Shown here: in pieces, positions 40,360 to 49,114 of the stretch
Layout: every line of letters starts with the position of its first letter
How positions within the stretch are numbered: the first letter of the stretch is position 1
Source of the DNA: Oceanospirillaceae bacterium
GTDB taxonomy: Bacteria; Pseudomonadota; Gammaproteobacteria; Pseudomonadales; Balneatricaceae
Length of the DNA stretch: 64,000 nt
Direction of reading: 5' to 3'
Assembly (NCBI GenBank): GCA_024640955.1
Contig: JAHEDZ010000003.1
Location: 43,866-107,865, forward strand
Program-made: the position numbers and the translations under genes
The notes under the pieces: generated by a model
Databases searched by the model: none
Told to the model about the DNA's origin: nothing
What the model saw: only the letters and a program-made list of their open reading frames with translations

Positions 40360-43300
40360 ATGATCAAAGCAGCTCCAATATCGAGTCGAGTTCCCAGGGT
40401 AGCGATAGTTGCGTTGTGCCTCTTTCTACTCTTATCGACGATTATCTCTCTCAATTACCAGTCTCAGCGTACTGAATCGCTGCAGCGCATCACCAAAGAG
40501 CAAGCCGCACTGCTGATCAAAGATAATGAACTAATAGCCACAGAGCTGCGAGAGACGATCTATGCGCTTCAAATTCTTTTACAGCGCGCTGAGGAGCTAG
40601 GTGCGCCCCCGGCTGAAGCGTTACGATCTGCCATTTTCGCGAATTCGGCGGCGTTTCAGGCGCGCTGGCTGTCCCTAGAGGGTCAGGAGCTGATGAGATT
40701 TGATCGCGATGCCGGAGTGGTCAGTCAGGTTCCGGAGCAAGAGCTTCAAGATAAATCAAACCGAGACTATTTCCGCTCGATGCTCGATCTGGAGGTCGGT
40801 CAGATCTACATATCGGAGTTTAACCTCAATGTAGAGCAGGGAAGCATAGAAGTCCCGTTTCGCCCAACCGTAAGGATCGGTGTGCGTGCTCCACAAGGGT
40901 ATATTCTTGCGAATCTCATTCTGACTGATCTTTTCGCCCTGATACGCACCTCCAACTACTCTCTGCATGAAACCTGGCTGGTAAACGCTGAGGGTGACTG
41001 GTTAATTGCGCCCCAGCAATCACTGGAGTGGGGTTTCCAGCTTGGTGAGCCAATTAAGGTTGGCGATACTCTATCCTTTTCAGATGTCGATCAGCTTCTG
41101 TCTGGCGACAGTTGGTACTCAATAGAGCCTGACTCCGGCGATATACTCTTGGCGAGCTCACTCAACATGGGCCCCACAAGTTTATCGCAAGCTCGGCTAG
41201 AGGATGATCACCCAATAATCCTGCGACTGATACCCGGTAGCTTTGTCGATGATTCCATAAGCCAGCACCGTCTTATAGAGCCCGCTCTCGCCTACCTACT
41301 GGCTTTACTGTTCTCTGCATTAGGCTGCGGGCTGCTGACCCAGTGGCGTAACCGGTTAATCGCTGATGCTTCAGCATTGGTCGAGCGTGAAGAGCTTGAG
41401 CGCCTAGTCGGTATCGCTAACCTCCTGCCCCAAATGACTTGGACTACCACTTCAGATGGCTATTGCGATTTCATTAACTCTCGCTGGGAGTCCTACACAG
41501 GTGCGACTCAGCATGAGTTAGAGGGTATGGGGTGGCTTCAGTTTATTCATCCAGATGATCAAGAGCGCGTCCAGAGTGCCTGGCAGAAATGCTTACTAAC
41601 AGGTGAGAATTTCTCGGTCCAGTTTCGATTACGAGATGAGGCGGGTAACTATCGTATGTTCGACACCCGAGCTCATGCATTGAAGGACAGCAGTGGGCGA
41701 GTCATCAAATGGTTTGGTTCGAATACCGATGTGCAGAGTGCGATCGATCTTACGGACAGAGTCAAGGATGAGAAGCGAATCCTTGAATCTAATCTGTCGG
41801 AGCTACTCAAAGAGAAACGAGAGCTGCTGCATAGGTTTGAATTTGCTGCAGGCTCTGCAAAGCTCGGTATTTGGGAGTTAGACCTCTCCCGCCAACATCT
41901 CGTCTGGGATGACAGGATGTTTGCTATTTTTAGGCGACATCGCTCGACAAAAAATAGTATCTATCGCCTCTGGAAGGAGAGCATACATCCTGATGACCTC
42001 TCCGAGGTGGAGTCTAAATTGGCGTGCGTCGGCCAAGAGGTGCAAAATATCCACCTCGAGTATCGAGTGAGGCGACCCGATGGCACCACTATTTGGGTTA
42101 GAGACAACGCCTCAGTGCAGCAAGACTCAACGGGGGCTCGGGTTAAGCTGGTTGGCTGTTCACAAGATATAACCGCAAACAAAAGCCTTACCCTCTCACT
42201 GGAGGAGGCGTTAGCACACCTCGAGCAGGCGAGAAAGGTTGCGGGCATCGGTATCTTTAGAATCGCTTTGGCAGAGAGTCGCTCCGAGTGGTCACGTGAA
42301 GTCTTCTCTCTGCTCGGGCTACCAGAGCAATCGACCTTCTCTCTAGCGCGTCTGCTGCTATATATCGTGCCGGAACAGCGTGACCAGGTAGAGGTGGACT
42401 ATGAAGCGGCAATCGCCCAACACGAGCCGTACGACGCCTATATTCAGATTCGAACGCCTCTGGGTGATACCCGTTTCTTACACCTGTTTCTCGATGCGAT
42501 CGTGGATGAAACAGGTGATGATCTTGTGATCTACGGAGTTCTGCTTGATGTCTCTGCACAGAAAGAAGTTGAGCATGATTTAGAGGAGGCTCGCTCACAA
42601 GCAGAGAGTTCAAACCTTGCGAAGTCAGCTTTTCTGGCCAATATGAGTCATGAGATACGCACACCCATGAATGGAATTCTGGGCATGTTGGCACTTTTGC
42701 GGCAGCGGATCCAAGAAGAGGAGGGTGCCAGCCTGGTTAATAAGGCCCTCCAAGCCGCAGAGCGTCTGATGGGAATCCTCAATGATGTCCTTGATATCTC
42801 CAGAGCTGATGCCGGCAAACTGACGTTGAACAAAGCTGAAATCGACTTAGATAGCCTTCTGCAAGAGTCTGTCGATATATTTGCGACTAACGCGGAGCTA
42901 AAGCGCGTTGCACTCGAAGTGGAGGTAGCCCCAAGCTTGCCCTCTAGTATAAAGGCAGATGGGTTAAGGCTGGGGCAGATCGTCTCTAATTTGGTCGGCA
43001 ATGCCGTTAAGTTTACCGACGAGGGAGGTCGGATTTTGATTCGTTTTGAGCTCGATCAGATATCGCAAACGCCGCATCTTAAGATCTCTGTTATCGATAC
43101 CGGGATCGGCATGACTGAACAGCAGGCGGCTAGCGCTTTTGAAGAGTTTAAGCAGGCTGACGAGAGTATATCTAAGCGCTTCGGTGGAACTGGGCTCGGC
43201 CTATCGATCTGCAAGCGCTTAACAGAGCTTATGCATGGACAGATTCACCTCGCGAGTACCCCGGGGAGAGGTACAACAGCAACAGTTGTTGTGCCTTTTG

Positions 43301-44769
43301 AGTTCCCCGCACCTAAAACCGCTAAGCAGCCTAAACCTCATCCGTGTCAGGTTGACCTGGTTACGCTCAGCCCAACTCTAGAGCGGAGCTTGAGACCCGC
43401 TCTTGTCGCAGACGGCGTAAGTCTGCGTGTATTCTCAAATCTTGATGAACTCATTGAGAGTGGCATTGGCTCAGTAAAGGCAACCTCCCATCTAATCGTA
43501 GATTCGGATCAGATCGAAGGACCAGCCGGTCAGGCTTTTGCGGCCAAGTATGATGAGGTCAAACCGCTCTTGCAGGGGTTCACAACCCAAACTCTCCACC
43601 TTCCTCCAGTGGTTAACACCTCTTTGCGCACACGTATAAGTTCTGGCAGGAATCGTTTGGTACACGGTACCGTGACCGCTGCGGGTATCGAGAGAGAGTT
43701 GTTATATTCGATATCAAACCACTATCCGGAAAAGATACCGACAGGGAACATAAACCCAGAAAGAAAGCTCAGTAGCCTCAAAATTATCAGCGTAGATGAT
43801 GTTGAGCTCAACAACGAGGTAATTAAAGGGCTACTGGCACAATACCAGGCTGATGTAGAGCTGTTTAGTGGCGCTAGCGGAGCGATAGAGCGAATAAAAC
43901 AAGGGGGTATTGACCTGGTGTTGATGGATGTTCACATGCCGGATATGGATGGATTAGAAGCAACTCGACAAATTAGAGCGCTGGCGGAGAATCTACAGCC
44001 GGTAATCTACGGGCTGTCAGCTTCAGTCCTGCCCGAGGATAGAGCTAAAGGCCTAGCGGCAGGAATGGATGACTATCTGAACAAACCATTTAGAATCAAA
44101 GATCTAATCAGCAAACTGAATCTGGAAATAGACGATTCAATTGCTGGGAAATCCTTATTCAATCGCAAAAATCAGTCAACTTACAGTTGGCCTAAGTTTA
44201 TGGATTTAGAGGGAGCCCTCAAACAGACAAGTGGTGACGAGCCAGCACTCCTAAATCTTGTTCGCGCCTTCGTAAATGGTTTCGCCTCCTACCCAGCTGA
44301 ATACGCTGAGGCAGTTGCAAACCGAGATGCCGATCAGTTGGAGCTTTTAACCCATCGCGTCAAAGGTGCAGCGGGCTATATCGGTGATACAAAGTTGCAA
44401 AAGCTAGCTAAGGGTCTCGAGCTAGATGTAAAACAGGGCAGGCTTCCAATAGACAATGAACTGGGCGAACTGGTTGCGGCCCATGCAGAGGGTTTGCAGC
44501 CGCTGATCAATGAGATAAAGGCTCAGTCAGTAAAGCCGGTATCGAGCGCAGATATCGAGAGCGTGACCAGTGAGCTGTTAGCGGCCTATTCTGACAACTG
44601 CTATACGCCAGCCAATGAATGGAAAGCTTATGTTGCTGGACTTAGGGCCATGGGATTCGATAGCATGGCACAGGAGTTAGAGGAAGTGCTGGAGCTCAAC
44701 GATTTCACCAGCGCTGCATCGATTTTGACCGAGATCCGCGCCTCGCTTGAGCAGCAGCCAAAGGCCTAA
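40360..44769 (+). CDS. Hybrid sensor histidine kinase with HPT (CACHE-like/PAS/HisKA/HATPase/REC/HPT)
   Basis: A 1469-residue membrane kinase. TM1 is at about 15-33, a periplasmic sensor region runs to about 305, and TM2 is about 308-326. Three PAS-like domains follow (about 345-465, 490-620, 630-735). HisKA carries His764 in FLANMSHEIRTPMNG; the ATP-binding domain has NAVKFTDEGG and GTGLGLSICKRL. A degenerate receiver-like segment (about 990-1120) lacks the phospho-Asp motif, followed by an intact REC domain with Asp1190 (LVLMDVHMPDMDG) and a C-terminal HPT domain with His1332 (THRVKGAAGYIG). A full internal phosphorelay is therefore present; output is probably the receiver upstream or a remote regulator. 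Confidence 0.95.
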   Translation: MIKAAPISSRVPRVAIVALCLFLLLSTIISLNYQSQRTESLQRITKEQAALLIKDNELIATELRETIYALQILLQRAEELGAPPAEALRSAIFANSAAFQARWLSLEGQELMRFDRDAGVVSQVPEQELQDKSNRDYFRSMLDLEVGQIYISEFNLNVEQGSIEVPFRPTVRIGVRAPQGYILANLILTDLFALIRTSNYSLHETWLVNAEGDWLIAPQQSLEWGFQLGEPIKVGDTLSFSDVDQLLSGDSWYSIEPDSGDILLASSLNMGPTSLSQARLEDDHPIILRLIPGSFVDDSISQHRLIEPALAYLLALLFSALGCGLLTQWRNRLIADASALVEREELERLVGIANLLPQMTWTTTSDGYCDFINSRWESYTGATQHELEGMGWLQFIHPDDQERVQSAWQKCLLTGENFSVQFRLRDEAGNYRMFDTRAHALKDSSGRVIKWFGSNTDVQSAIDLTDRVKDEKRILESNLSELLKEKRELLHRFEFAAGSAKLGIWELDLSRQHLVWDDRMFAIFRRHRSTKNSIYRLWKESIHPDDLSEVESKLACVGQEVQNIHLEYRVRRPDGTTIWVRDNASVQQDSTGARVKLVGCSQDITANKSLTLSLEEALAHLEQARKVAGIGIFRIALAESRSEWSREVFSLLGLPEQSTFSLARLLLYIVPEQRDQVEVDYEAAIAQHEPYDAYIQIRTPLGDTRFLHLFLDAIVDETGDDLVIYGVLLDVSAQKEVEHDLEEARSQAESSNLAKSAFLANMSHEIRTPMNGILGMLALLRQRIQEEEGASLVNKALQAAERLMGILNDVLDISRADAGKLTLNKAEIDLDSLLQESVDIFATNAELKRVALEVEVAPSLPSSIKADGLRLGQIVSNLVGNAVKFTDEGGRILIRFELDQISQTPHLKISVIDTGIGMTEQQAASAFEEFKQADESISKRFGGTGLGLSICKRLTELMHGQIHLASTPGRGTTATVVVPFEFPAPKTAKQPKPHPCQVDLVTLSPTLERSLRPALVADGVSLRVFSNLDELIESGIGSVKATSHLIVDSDQIEGPAGQAFAAKYDEVKPLLQGFTTQTLHLPPVVNTSLRTRISSGRNRLVHGTVTAAGIERELLYSISNHYPEKIPTGNINPERKLSSLKIISVDDVELNNEVIKGLLAQYQADVELFSGASGAIERIKQGGIDLVLMDVHMPDMDGLEATRQIRALAENLQPVIYGLSASVLPEDRAKGLAAGMDDYLNKPFRIKDLISKLNLEIDDSIAGKSLFNRKNQSTYSWPKFMDLEGALKQTSGDEPALLNLVRAFVNGFASYPAEYAEAVANRDADQLELLTHRVKGAAGYIGDTKLQKLAKGLELDVKQGRLPIDNELGELVAAHAEGLQPLINEIKAQSVKPVSSADIESVTSELLAAYSDNCYTPANEWKAYVAGLRAMGFDSMAQELEEVLELNDFTSAASILTEIRASLEQQPKA

Positions 44770-44807: not shown

Positions 44808-45134
44808 ATGGACAGCGACGCAAACGTCAGCAAAGAGAAGCTCAAAGTTTATGTCAAGATGGCAGATGGTCAGCGCCTGCTTGGTTTTTTCTTTGCCGAA
44901 CCAAATGAGAGGCTGCAGGATCTATTGAATGATCAAAGAGCCTTCCTGCCACTCCATGCCCTTAACGATAATGGAAAGTATCAATTAATCATGCTTTCTA
45001 AGTCCTTCGTACAGCAAGTTGAAGAGGTTGCCGAGCTACCAAATATTGATGTTGAGGGCGACAGAAGATCCGCTGAAAGACGAACGGGGCATGAACTGCG
45101 CTCACCGAGCACACCAAAATTTGAACTAGACTAA
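44808..45134 (+). CDS. Hypothetical protein, 108 aa
   Basis: A small soluble protein between two sensor kinases: a beta-strand pattern at the start (EKLKVYVKMADGQRLLGFFF), then a charged C-terminus with a run of Arg/Glu (DRRSAERRTGHE). No family recognised. It lies 38 bp after the hybrid kinase and 65 bp before the next one, so the three genes may form one operon. Confidence 0.7.
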   Translation: MDSDANVSKEKLKVYVKMADGQRLLGFFFAEPNERLQDLLNDQRAFLPLHALNDNGKYQLIMLSKSFVQQVEEVAELPNIDVEGDRRSAERRTGHELRSPSTPKFELD

Positions 45135-45199: not shown

Positions 45200-46684
45200 A
45201 TGAACAATCAAACGAAAGAGCCGCAACTAAACAACCTTGAGCTGTTATCGAATCAGGCAAACTCGCTGTTCGGACGCTTAATGATTGTTCAACTCCAAGT
45301 TAGTAGTGATCGGCAGACGGTTATTGCGGACCATATGGGGCAAGCAGCACTGGGCATGAATGAGCACCAGTCGCGGGAAGAATTTCTTGCGCGAATCGAG
45401 CCTGCTGAGATACACGGTTTAATCGGCAAGGTTGACATCGATAGCAGTTCAATTTTGGTCCGCGATCTATCGGGTATATACAACCCTGCAAAACTTTGGC
45501 AATACCGACCCAGTCGTGCAGATAACTGGCAAATTGCGATTCAAATTGAGATGCAAAATACAATTGAGGAAAACCCTCTTGAGAAGCGGTTTTTTGCCCA
45601 GCAGCAGCTTCTCTCAATCATTTCGCATGAGCTACGCACGCCAGCAGCTACCCTGAAGATGTTAATTGACGAACTGAGTGAGGCGAGCCTCGCCGAGCAG
45701 TTACCACTTCTTCGTGAAACTAGCGAGCACTTGATGACTGTGCTTCACGACATGCGTCAGGCTATCAACCCGCAACAGAATCTGCCGCAACAGCTCAGAG
45801 TCTTTCATCCCAACAGGTTGTTGGAGAGCGTTACCAGTCAAGTGAGGCGCATGGCTCAAGCCCAAGGCATTACGCTGCGCATGGAGATGATCAGTGATGA
45901 GCGGCTTCGGGTAAATGCAGATCTTGAGCGATGTAAACTAATTCTTCTCAATCTCCTCAAAAACGCCATCATCCACTCGGGCGGTAAGGAGGTGAGTGTA
46001 GGTGCTGAACTCATCTACCCAGAAGGGAATAAAGCATCGATGGAGTTTGTTATCCATGATGACGGTGTGGGCATCGAACCTCTCGAGATAGAGCGCATTC
46101 TTCAGCCGTTTGAGCGGATGCAGGGGTTAGAGCAAGGTGGCGACGGTGCAGGACTCGGACTATTTGTTGTTAAGCAAAGCGTCAAAGAGCTTGGTGGTAC
46201 CTTCTCCCTCACTCCGATACCCTCATCTGGCCTTGAGGCGCGTGTAGTCATACCCTTTACCGCAGTCGAGAACGAGACCACAACGCGTGCTGACGCTAGC
46301 CAGGAGTCGGAAAGGTTTCAGAAGCGCCTCGCTGTAATGCGAGTATTGGTTGTCGAAGATGATCCGGTGATTCGTATGGTTTCACAGAAGCTACTGTCCA
46401 AAAGAGTCGGCCAGGTTGATGTTGCGGAAAATGGCGCAGTCGGGCTGGAGAAGATAAAAAGCACGCCGTACGATCTGATTCTCAGTGATTTCTTCATGCC
46501 CGTCATGGATGGCGCAGAGATGATCCGTCAAGCACGCGCTTGCGGTATTCAAACGCCGATTATCTCGGTCACGGCAGCCGTGCTTGGTGAAGAGGCACAG
46601 GAGTTGCGCGAAGCCGGGGCCAACCAGATTCTTGCTAAGCCGATCTCTATGAAGGCGTTCATTGACGCCGTCGAGCAACTCTAG
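45200..46684 (+). CDS. Soluble hybrid histidine kinase-response regulator
   Basis: A 494-residue cytoplasmic kinase with no membrane segment. The N-terminal region (1-120) is PAS-sized but no PAS motif is clear. HisKA carries His143 in SIISHELRTPAATLKML; the ATP-binding domain has NLLKNAIIHSGG and GAGLGLFVVKQ. The C-terminal REC has phospho-acceptor Asp430 (LILSDFFMPVMDG). The catalytic core is clearly paralogous to the kinases at 55256, 58385 and 61077. No HPT is present, so phosphate must leave through a separate protein. Confidence 0.94.
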   Translation: MNNQTKEPQLNNLELLSNQANSLFGRLMIVQLQVSSDRQTVIADHMGQAALGMNEHQSREEFLARIEPAEIHGLIGKVDIDSSSILVRDLSGIYNPAKLWQYRPSRADNWQIAIQIEMQNTIEENPLEKRFFAQQQLLSIISHELRTPAATLKMLIDELSEASLAEQLPLLRETSEHLMTVLHDMRQAINPQQNLPQQLRVFHPNRLLESVTSQVRRMAQAQGITLRMEMISDERLRVNADLERCKLILLNLLKNAIIHSGGKEVSVGAELIYPEGNKASMEFVIHDDGVGIEPLEIERILQPFERMQGLEQGGDGAGLGLFVVKQSVKELGGTFSLTPIPSSGLEARVVIPFTAVENETTTRADASQESERFQKRLAVMRVLVVEDDPVIRMVSQKLLSKRVGQVDVAENGAVGLEKIKSTPYDLILSDFFMPVMDGAEMIRQARACGIQTPIISVTAAVLGEEAQELREAGANQILAKPISMKAFIDAVEQL

Positions 46685-46711
46685 CAAGTAGTTCGTTCTA
46701 AAGGTATATTG

Positions 46712-46730
46712 TACGTATTATTAATACGTA
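46712..46730. promoter_or_regulatory. 19-bp perfect palindrome upstream of the KfrA-like gene
   Basis: TACGTATTA-T-TAATACGTA is a perfect palindrome with 9-bp arms, ending 11 bp before the KfrA-like ATG. It overlaps the predicted leader/SD region. KfrA proteins are known to bind their own promoters, so this is a candidate autoregulatory operator. Confidence 0.65.
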
Positions 46731-46741
46731 AGGTGTACTTT

Positions 46742-47398
46742 ATGACTGGCGATACTCGTCGCAAAGTATTTGAGGTTGCAGATGAGCTGCTACGGGAAGG
46801 GAAGCGCCCTACGCAACAGCTTGTTCGAGATCGAATTGGTGTAGGCTCAATTACTACTATTAACAAGGGTTTGAACGAGTGGTGGGCCGCGCTAAGCGAT
46901 CGCTTTAACAGCGTAGATGCTCACGGAACCGTACCTGAGGTGGTAATTCGCCACAGCGCAAGACTCTGGAGTGAGGCCCTCGGTTACGCAAGAGCGGAGC
47001 ACAACAAGCTTCGCTCGGAACAACAAAGCCTGTTAGAAAGCACTAATAATCAATTGCTTAAAGAACGCTCTGAATATGCCGCTAAACTTCAAGATCTTAG
47101 CGCTACGATCGCAAATCAACAGCAAGCCGCTTCAGAGCTCGAGAGCGAGCGGCGAGACTTGCAAAAGTCTCTTCACGCCGTAGAGGAGGAGTGCTATCGT
47201 CTGTCTAAGTTAGAAAACTCACGCAAAAACAGTAGCATAGCCAATAATGCAGATGAAAACATGCGTGACCAGCTACTCGAAGAACGCGTGAAGCTTCGAA
47301 TTAAGCAGGATACTATCGATGAGCTAAATATTAAAAATCAAAAGCTTATCGAAGAAAATGCAGAACTAAGATTAAGACTAAGACGGGCGGAAAGTTAG
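46742..47398 (+). CDS. KfrA-like DNA-binding coiled-coil protein
   Basis: A 218-residue protein with an N-terminal KfrA-type helix-turn-helix domain (TRRKVFEVADELLREGKRPT then VRDRIGVGSITTINKGLNEW, residues 4-48) followed by an extended coiled coil from about 80 to the end. KfrA proteins of plasmids bind DNA through the N-terminal domain and form filament-like coils; a chromosomal location beside signalling genes is less usual. The ATG at 46742 has AAGGTG upstream; an earlier TTG (46709) would lie upstream of the palindrome. It is 2 bp before the next gene. Confidence 0.88.
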   Translation: MTGDTRRKVFEVADELLREGKRPTQQLVRDRIGVGSITTINKGLNEWWAALSDRFNSVDAHGTVPEVVIRHSARLWSEALGYARAEHNKLRSEQQSLLESTNNQLLKERSEYAAKLQDLSATIANQQQAASELESERRDLQKSLHAVEEECYRLSKLENSRKNSSIANNADENMRDQLLEERVKLRIKQDTIDELNIKNQKLIEENAELRLRLRRAES

Positions 47399-47400
47399 CC

Positions 47401-47838
47401 ATGGAGAGTCAACTAAACAGTACGGCTACCGACGCTGCAATGCGGGACCTTGTAAGCAAGGCCAGCACTGGGGATACAATCAACGTAGTAACGCAAGCGC
47501 AATTCGACCGACTAAAACGACTCCTTGTTGAGTACAAAAAAGTGGGTTTGCGTCTATGCTTGTTAGACGAAGATGGCTACATACTGCGCCAAGTCTCGAG
47601 CCGCTCTAAGTCCGCACGAGTTGAGTCCGCCGGATTCAACGAGCAGCAGAAGAGGGTGCTTAAGGCCCTCGAGCGCGTACTCGAGGCCTGTGAGCGCGAA
47701 AAAATAAGCCTGGTTGGCTACAGTGATTCATTGGTTGCCGTACCAGCAGCGTTACTGCATACAGATTTGGCATCGGCAGAAGCCAGGGAGCTAGAGTGTG
47801 GCGAGGTCTATCTGGGCGCCGACATCCTGAAAAGTTAA
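47401..47838 (+). CDS. Hypothetical partner of the KfrA-like protein, 145 aa
   Basis: No family recognised. It has helical N- and C-terminal thirds around a small beta region (VGLRLCLLDEDGYILRQVSS). It starts 2 bp after the KfrA-like gene and is probably translationally coupled, suggesting the two act together. It is soluble, and contains no DNA-binding motif that I can see. Confidence 0.7.
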   Translation: MESQLNSTATDAAMRDLVSKASTGDTINVVTQAQFDRLKRLLVEYKKVGLRLCLLDEDGYILRQVSSRSKSARVESAGFNEQQKRVLKALERVLEACEREKISLVGYSDSLVAVPAALLHTDLASAEARELECGEVYLGADILKS

Positions 47839-47874: not shown

Positions 47875-48537
47875 ATGCCTAAAACTATCAGCGTTGTGCT
47901 CGCAGATGACCATCCAGTCGTACTAGCGGGGTACCAGCACCTGCTAGATGAGGATAGTGAAATTCATATCCTGGCCCAAACCGGTAGCGTTGATGATGCT
48001 GTTGATCTTTGTATTGAGCACAATCCTGATATTTTGGTACTAGATCTCGGACTGCCTGCGTCTAAAGGGGATGATCAAACGCATTCGCTTGGGGGTATGG
48101 AGGTCATAAAAGCGCTTGCCGAAAAAGGCTCAGATACCAAGGTGTTAATTTCTACGATGTTAGGCAAATCGCCGGTACCAGAGCGCGTCTTAAAGGCTGG
48201 TGCACACGGCTATTTGGTAAAAACTGAAGCGGCAGACGCGCTGGCTAATGCAATTCGCACAGTTGCCTCTGGCGGGCAGTACATCTCTCCATCAATCGCT
48301 AATGAGCTAGCTACGGAGAGCGACGCTATCAGTCGTATTGAGGAGCTATCTAAACGTGAGGTACAGATCTTTTTGCTACTCGCAGAGGGCTTGCCGGCCG
48401 TAGAAATCGCTGAGAAAACCAGCCTCAGCCCGAAAACAGTGCATGCGCATCGCGCCAACATCCTGCGTAAGCTGAGTCTCAAAAACAACTCAGACCTCGT
48501 TCGCTTCGCGCTCTCATCGGGCGTCATTCAGCAGTAG
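47875..48537 (+). CDS. NarL/FixJ-family response regulator
   Basis: A 220-residue transcription regulator. The receiver domain (1-130) has the phospho-acceptor Asp in ILVLDLGLPASKG and the Lys in LVKTE. The C-terminal LuxR-type HTH (about 150-215) carries LSKREVQIFLLLAEGL and ISLSPKTVHAHRANILRKL-like sequence. An insertion SKGDDQTHSLGG follows the phospho-Asp. It is the only clear DNA-binding response regulator in this signalling block, so it could be the output of one of the nearby hybrid kinases; this is inference. Confidence 0.93.
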   Translation: MPKTISVVLADDHPVVLAGYQHLLDEDSEIHILAQTGSVDDAVDLCIEHNPDILVLDLGLPASKGDDQTHSLGGMEVIKALAEKGSDTKVLISTMLGKSPVPERVLKAGAHGYLVKTEAADALANAIRTVASGGQYISPSIANELATESDAISRIEELSKREVQIFLLLAEGLPAVEIAEKTSLSPKTVHAHRANILRKLSLKNNSDLVRFALSSGVIQQ

Positions 48538-48542
48538 TTATT

Positions 48543-48830
48543 ATGGAAGTAGGAGCCAAGATAGCCGAAGATCCAAACAGCACTACAGCGCTCTGGTCTG
48601 CCATCTCGATTGGCGATCAAATTCAGCTAGAAGCTGATCTAATCGAGCAAGGGGTCAAGCGCCTCAGTAAATCAAAACTCTACACAGTCCTAGCCAAGGT
48701 TGATTCCCAAGGTGAGGCTTACTTCGATGCTTTTGTTGTTGAGTCTGATCTTGTCGACGGGCTAGTACACGTCTCTCCGGCGTTTATTTGCAACTACAAC
48801 AAGGCTGAGCAGACACCGCTGCTCACATAG
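48543..48830 (+). CDS. Hypothetical protein, 95 aa
   Basis: A small acidic soluble protein 5 bp after the NarL-type regulator and probably co-transcribed. Segments such as SIGDQIQLEADLIEQGVK and SPAFICNYNKAEQ show no recognised domain. Function unknown. Confidence 0.7.
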   Translation: MEVGAKIAEDPNSTTALWSAISIGDQIQLEADLIEQGVKRLSKSKLYTVLAKVDSQGEAYFDAFVVESDLVDGLVHVSPAFICNYNKAEQTPLLT

Positions 48831-48905: not shown

Positions 48906-49114
48906 TTGCTCGCGAAGGGCGTTGCCCCATTCTTTCAGCCATATAATTTAACATAATATATATTATACGTAACTATATATATCGATATTCCGGCGCTTAA
49001 GCCCGTGTGAAAGCACACTTACCAGCATCAAGAAAGCTATAAAGCCTTAGAAAAATTGGCGAATTAAATCGCAACCCGTTAGCCTAAGCGCTCTCGAATC
49101 AAGGAAGCGTTTTA

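Follow-up and report, generated by a model that had tools for sequence, protein, structure and literature searches.

A chromosomal KfrA-type operon with a conserved putative operator is linked to the dif site in one bacterial family

The perfect 19-bp palindrome ahead of a chromosomal kfrA-like gene is supported, by its recurrence upstream of kfrA orthologs, as a conserved putative operator of that gene. The gene heads an operon of four genes, kfrA-p145-LuxR-type response regulator-p95, not two, and in the family studied this operon is linked to dif. We consider it likely that the KfrA-type protein is an autorepressor which has this palindrome as its operator and belongs to an old, terminus-resident operon. 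The preliminary description of the window (the whole 64-kb stretch of DNA that was analysed) had put forward a KfrA operator and a coupled partner gene, a reading that conservation now supports. The features concerned are these:

46712..46730, no strand: putative KfrA operator, a perfect 19-bp palindrome with two TACGTA boxes 7 bp apart (sequence, genome scans, ortholog counterparts)
46742..47398, + strand: kfrA-like gene, 218 aa, with a KfrA_N helix-turn-helix head and probably a coiled-coil tail (PF11740 1.8e-19, alignment)
47401..47838, + strand: p145, conserved partner with a predicted alpha/beta domain (ORF, co-occurrence, structure prediction)
47875..48537, + strand: NarL/LuxR-type response regulator, GacA-like, under the GacA model cut-off (Pfam/NCBIfam profiles, tree)
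48543..48830, + strand: p95, a small protein for which an SH3-like beta barrel is predicted (locus comparison, predicted structure)
48946..48973, - strand: dif, candidate XerCD chromosome dimer resolution site, GTTACGTATAATATATATTATGTTAAAT (pattern match, likeness to E. coli dif, GC-skew turn)

The palindrome reads TACGTATTA-T-TAATACGTA and, as first described, ends 11 bp ahead of the kfrA ATG at 46742. An alternative TTG start at 46709, present in the list of open reading frames, would enclose the palindrome in the ORF; we favour the ATG, as the alignment of orthologues begins there and AAGGTG (by eye) precedes it. The KfrA-like nature of the product is borne out by a Pfam match to KfrA_N (PF11740; 71 bits against a cut-off of 26.1, E 1.8e-19), and the protein has weak matches to coiled-coil proteins, namely SMC and a designed one. 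The coordinates also agree with the proposed coupling to a 145-aa protein assigned to no family: kfrA runs to 47398 and p145 begins at 47401, leaving a 2-bp gap, and p145 matches no Pfam model above cut-off and no NCBIfam model at E values up to 1.

Just upstream of kfrA lie genes for a DUF6812 protein (44808-45134) and a kinase-receiver protein (45200-46684), both found again in three relatives from the same genus; within the 35 loci compared, the window's genus is the only one with them ahead of kfrA. Also between the tRNA cluster and kfrA, the window has a gene for a hybrid sensor kinase of 1469 aa (40360-44769). At some other loci, a tRNA-Cys gene is found directly upstream of kfrA (L071 8893-8966, L072 13293-13366 and L069 8845-8918); for L071 and L072 this gene is additional to the tRNA-Cys of the Gly-Cys-Leu cluster.

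A genome scan, suggested in the preliminary description, found the palindrome at a single place. With up to 3 mismatches allowed, there was no second copy within the 64-kb window (and none in 100 shuffles), nor was there one in the whole 2.59-Mb genome. The two-box pattern TACRTA-N7/8-TACRTA likewise has one place in this genome, the palindrome itself. Among relatives, the aligned KfrA proteins are 28-36% identical to that of the window, and despite this divergence the upstream signal is retained, as TACGTATTATTAATACGTA in the window and as ATACGTATCAAATAATACGTAT and similar sequences in relatives, where GTGTAT or GTGTAC often comes next before the ATG (a third box, by eye). Across 35 relative loci and the window, pairs of boxes with a spacing of 7 or 8 bp occurred 20 times (6 at 7 bp, 14 at 8 bp), and no other spacing from 0 to 59 bp occurred more than 5 times. 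Each of these 20 sites is found where a KfrA_N gene begins, in one case in another family; the window's spacing of 7 bp is the rarer one.

Loss of the palindrome upstream of orthologs, named beforehand as grounds for giving up the proposal, did not occur. In the 70 readable kfrA upstream regions (from 75 named genome loci), two boxes were found in 42 and at least one box in 66; 28 were not of the two-box form, including 4 with no box. The stricter pattern ATACRTAT-N6-ATAYGTAT, with at most 1 mismatch, was present in 47 of 116 family genomes, compared with 10 of 116 for the reversed control, and genomes with the pattern mostly hold one operator each. It matched 56 places in total. Loci were fetched for 30 of them: the match immediately precedes kfrA in 22, and the other eight, each with 1 mismatch, show no KfrA within the fetched 3 kb. 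In several relatives the boxes just upstream of kfrA directly follow a TAATAT-like hexamer (by eye); a consensus promoter scan of the window returned no + strand promoter before kfrA.

A KfrA-type site of three boxes was also observed in five genomes of genus g11, an Osedax symbiont group, where it is the most highly conserved part of a non-coding region adjoining genes for a PAS histidine kinase and a LuxR regulator (L277 9346, L272 9360, L274 4886, L276 9331 and L273 9285). In L244, which represents the same place as L277, no ORF of at least 80 aa starts within about 480 bp after the site. The g11 kfrA upstream regions that were fetched had no strict-pattern match. No closeness of the separate g11 sites to dif was found, the dif pattern being without a match in 6 of 7 g11 genomes.

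The four-gene order recurs through the family, a group of mainly marine bacteria that we take to be the Nitrincolaceae and whose members include Marinobacterium, Nitrincola, Neptunomonas, Neptuniibacter, Amphritea, Pontibacterium, Motiliproteus, Balneatrix and Osedax symbionts, among others. In a search of 57 relatives, KfrA had a match in 32 (30 in the window's own family, some of them only a paralogue) and p145 in 32, all within the family. With the alignment-based search, p145 was found in 108 of 116 family genomes and KfrA-type proteins in 94, two of which (G012 and G028) hold only a longer paralogue. Co-occurrence of the 145-aa partner with KfrA, which had been singled out for checking, is extensive: at 75 named p145 loci, some cut by contig ends, kfrA lies upstream in 72, the response regulator is present in 67 and p95 in 45. 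In three further species of the window's genus the regulator and p95 are missing, whereas the DUF6812 gene, the kinase-receiver gene, kfrA and p145 are present; genus g2 has p145 with no KfrA match at 1e-10. Since p145 is kept without the regulator and p95 in some species and without KfrA in g2, it probably has a use of its own.

Many other family genomes encode a second, longer KfrA_N protein, mostly in frames of 333-405 aa (for example, G022:C7:240320 and G031:C22:367790), which had no match in the window's genome. On plasmids, searches with p145 and with the stretch round dif gave no match; KfrA matched 214 records, every one below 60% identity, so no recent plasmid origin is visible.

Structure prediction gave p145 an AlphaFold2 model with pLDDT 87.6 and pTM 0.46. 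Because its best Foldseek E was 0.048 and its best VIA-align Z was 4.8 (residues 1-63, 62 aligned, rmsd 2.9), we claim no structural relative; a profile search of PDB sequences likewise gave nothing below E 0.15. Where KfrA is missing, the neighbours of p145 are genes for a peptidase, an FAD enzyme, S30AE and ETF-QO in g2, and for hemerythrin and YcaO in L085 (genome G018), which suggest no common function. The predicted structure of p95 is most like HERC2 (Z 8.6, rmsd 3.2, 85 aligned), with ribosomal and SH3 folds scoring lower; its SH3-like barrel was taken only as a common arrangement.

Chromosomes that have become joined are separated at dif. Read on the reverse strand, 48946-48973 is GTTACGTATAATATATATTATGTTAAAT, equal at 24 of 28 bases to the E. 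coli dif sequence (PMC3025954, as quoted in the part of that paper used for comparison). We regard this stretch as a dif site and a candidate for XerCD recombination. The preliminary description had noted a second KfrA half-site at 48962-48972: the letters ATTATACGTAA do exist there, but they form an arm of dif, and their reading as a KfrA target is not supported, so that a motif taken by eye for a half-site turned out to belong to a dimer resolution site. Three relatives of the same genus have TTTAACATAATATATATTATACGTA in common with the window, after the operon. A dif pattern with up to 3 mismatches matched once in the window and once in its genome; it matched 102 of 116 family genomes, in 98 of them singly, and the reversed control matched none. 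The cumulative GC skew of the window rises until about 46-54 kb and then falls, and because dif lies at this turn the window spans the replication terminus. In genome G015, a dif-like site is seen among genes that flank kfrA in its relatives.

The operon is linked to dif across the family. With genus g2 set aside, true KfrA was found in 92 genomes and a dif match in 87; both occur in 83, on one contig in 71 and on different contigs in 12. In all 71 one-contig genomes dif lies downstream of kfrA and the operon points at it, at a median distance of 2.2 kb: at most 3 kb in 40, at most 15 kb in 53 and at most 100 kb in 70, the largest distance being 124 kb in one genome. For 20 loci around dif, selected mainly for a short distance, the gap from dif to the end of the last operon gene found is at most 251 bp in 13 and 273-8498 bp in seven. 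The orientation of dif relative to the operon is the same in 55 of the 71 genomes and opposite in 16, seven of the latter pairs lying less than 1.8 kb apart. In all 58 genomes with kfrA, dif and uvrC on a shared contig, kfrA is the closer of the two genes to dif. In genome G017 a perfect KfrA-type operator was observed 2.05 kb beyond dif (L278 9473; G017:C22:319972), where the 19-kb stretch examined contains no kfrA gene; the operon lies 34 kb from dif on the other side.

Why the operon stands at this place is a matter separate from autorepression, with which any passive explanation of the place is compatible. Such an explanation, in which the operon is part of an old block, uvrC-pgsA-tRNA-gap-kfrA operon, whose end falls at dif by chance and whose closeness to dif has no function, seems to us somewhat better than an even bet. 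In genus g2, which has no KfrA match, the distance between uvrC and dif is 2.3-4.2 kb in 14 of 15 genomes and 16.7 kb in the remaining one, and p145 is 65-79 kb away from dif in all four genomes where this was checked. Closeness to dif is therefore not special to kfrA, and the block beside dif is older or wider than kfrA. At 10 of the 20 chosen loci uvrC and pgsA are on the operon's side of dif. Nor do broken linkages suggest that linkage to dif is kept more strictly than linkage to uvrC: among the 41 of 71 genomes with kfrA at most 3.2 kb from dif, uvrC and kfrA are less than 7 kb apart in 18, at least 7 kb apart in 16 and set aside in 7 (uvrC on another contig or not found), and among the other 30 they are less than 7 kb apart in 14, further apart in 10 and left without a distance in 6. 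Because 16 genomes keep dif and not uvrC and 14 do the reverse, selection and inherited order are not separated. Some loci do speak against mere inheritance. Nine clusters recurring in at least five genera lie on the operon side and one beyond dif at the 20 mostly close loci (one of the nine merges response regulators with kinases); in G029 and G016 kfrA is within 2.3 kb of dif while uvrC is 277 or 365 kb from it; and kfrA remains within 1.8 kb of dif in the seven genomes with close, reversed pairs. These same seven pairs, together with the uniform direction of the operon, its distances from dif, the order relative to uvrC and the lone operator of G017, would suit a role at the terminus, in which an operator-bound KfrA coiled-coil complex holds, pairs or positions the terminus for XerCD/FtsK, as a chromosomal counterpart of the plasmid KfrA maintenance role in bacteria without MatP. 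No match to MatP (PF06303) was found in any of 116 family genomes, the E. coli control being positive. We nevertheless think such a role quite unlikely: inherited order accounts for the linkage nearly as well and is the likelier reason for the operon's place, kfrA is more than 3.2 kb from dif in 30 of 71 genomes, most genomes with the strict pattern have a single operator, the separate g11 sites have no known link to dif, and the operon also contains a transcription factor. The more specific proposal that this MatP-less family uses a plasmid-type KfrA, nucleated on an operator beside dif and produced by an operon directed towards dif, as a local terminus-holding element is improbable in our judgement; if it were true, a single site would serve both autorepression and segregation.

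A further explanation centres on the response regulator, which could be a derived GacA/UvrY displaced across uvrC-pgsA-tRNA, its level being set by KfrA and p145. The operon regulator is the best match to the GacA model in five of the seven family genomes with any match (eight searched), and the GacA/UvrY cut-off is passed by no regulator in nine family genomes, compared with 39 of 73 other genomes of the order. E. coli has the order uvrY-uvrC-pgsA-tRNA-Gly-Cys-Leu, and GacA and uvrC are no more than 1.5 kb apart in 26 of 30 cases. A tree that took in six E. coli proteins sets the operon regulators next to GacA, but the joining branch has support of only 77/61, and GacA and UvrY form a clade (100/99) without them. 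The regulator scores 143.7-143.8 bits against the GacA/UvrY model (NF007018), short of the cut-off of 280, and the three genus relatives without the regulator still have kfrA-p145. We hold displacement of a GacA unit to be possible yet doubtful. The autorepressor reading, which we prefer, has difficulties of its own in the upstream regions that lack the two-box form or any box, in the non-coding g11 site of five genomes and its absence from the fetched g11 kfrA upstream regions, in the lack of a + strand consensus promoter before kfrA in the window, in the window's rarer spacing and in the presence of p145 without KfrA in g2.

Under autorepression, KfrA dimers would bind the TACRTA boxes just before the kfrA start codon, which in many relatives seem to be followed by a third, GTGTAT/GTGTAC-like box, and this binding would block transcription of kfrA, p145, the response regulator and p95. 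We propose repression of its own operon by analogy with the autoregulators RA3 KfrA and R751 KfrA, and as in those plasmid proteins the helical tail may join dimers and make binding cooperative. Within such an operon, p145 would be a co-expressed partner that may also act on its own account, the response regulator might carry a signal in or out, and p95 could be a small accessory protein. The operon itself appears to be old in one family, sited at the replication terminus and transcribed towards dif.

KfrA proteins are accessory maintenance and filament proteins of plasmids, and the operon described here is a chromosomal, terminus-resident variant of KfrA operons. According to the excerpted reports on RA3 and R751, plasmid KfrAs are autoregulators with operators over their own promoters; the helix-turn-helix head binds and the helical tail oligomerises, and RA3 KfrA uses repeats TGTATTGTA, at least two of which must be close together (PMC7783346, PMC7821693). 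The KfrA of Acidithiobacillia is treated as plasmid-related in the part of the source cited (PMC10561277). As far as these partial accounts go, the window's protein shares with the KfrA of RA3, R751 and RK2 the KfrA_N head and an operator before its own gene, and the RA3 repeats TGTATTGTA resemble, by eye, the GTATTGTGTATT part of the relatives' three-box operators. Unlike the plasmid genes, the window's gene is chromosomal and kept through one family. Set against the same excerpts, it encodes 218 aa rather than the 345 aa of RA3 KfrA; its putative operator has two self-complementary TACRTA boxes, whereas RA3 has five 9-bp repeats and RK2 a 24-nt imperfect palindrome; and its neighbours are p145, the response regulator and p95, whereas the partners reported for RA3 are KfrC, IncC and KorB.

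The nearest clade to the operon regulator is GacA/UvrY, with which it shares the uvrC-pgsA-tRNA neighbourhood; it differs in falling under the model cut-off, in forming a separate clade and in belonging to a different operon. MatP is a DNA-binding protein tied to the terminus, a likeness that KfrA would share if the terminus role held; MatP belongs to another protein family, the one unmatched in the 116 family genomes. In E. coli, 23 matS sites are spread over 800 kb, according to the part of the source cited (PMC3330122), compared with one KfrA-type site in the window's genome. KfrA and the dif site treated together were not found in the CC-licensed PubMed Central texts searched. A family-wide chromosomal KfrA with its own putative site, its partners and its place at the side of dif offers a handle on KfrA outside plasmids, and makes a role in terminus management directly testable in bacteria without MatP. 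As a member of the dif/XerCD system, 48946-48973 looks ordinary, with 24 of 28 bases as in E. coli, a single match in its genome and a position at the skew turn; the site itself shows no difference, and what is added here is its constant neighbour.
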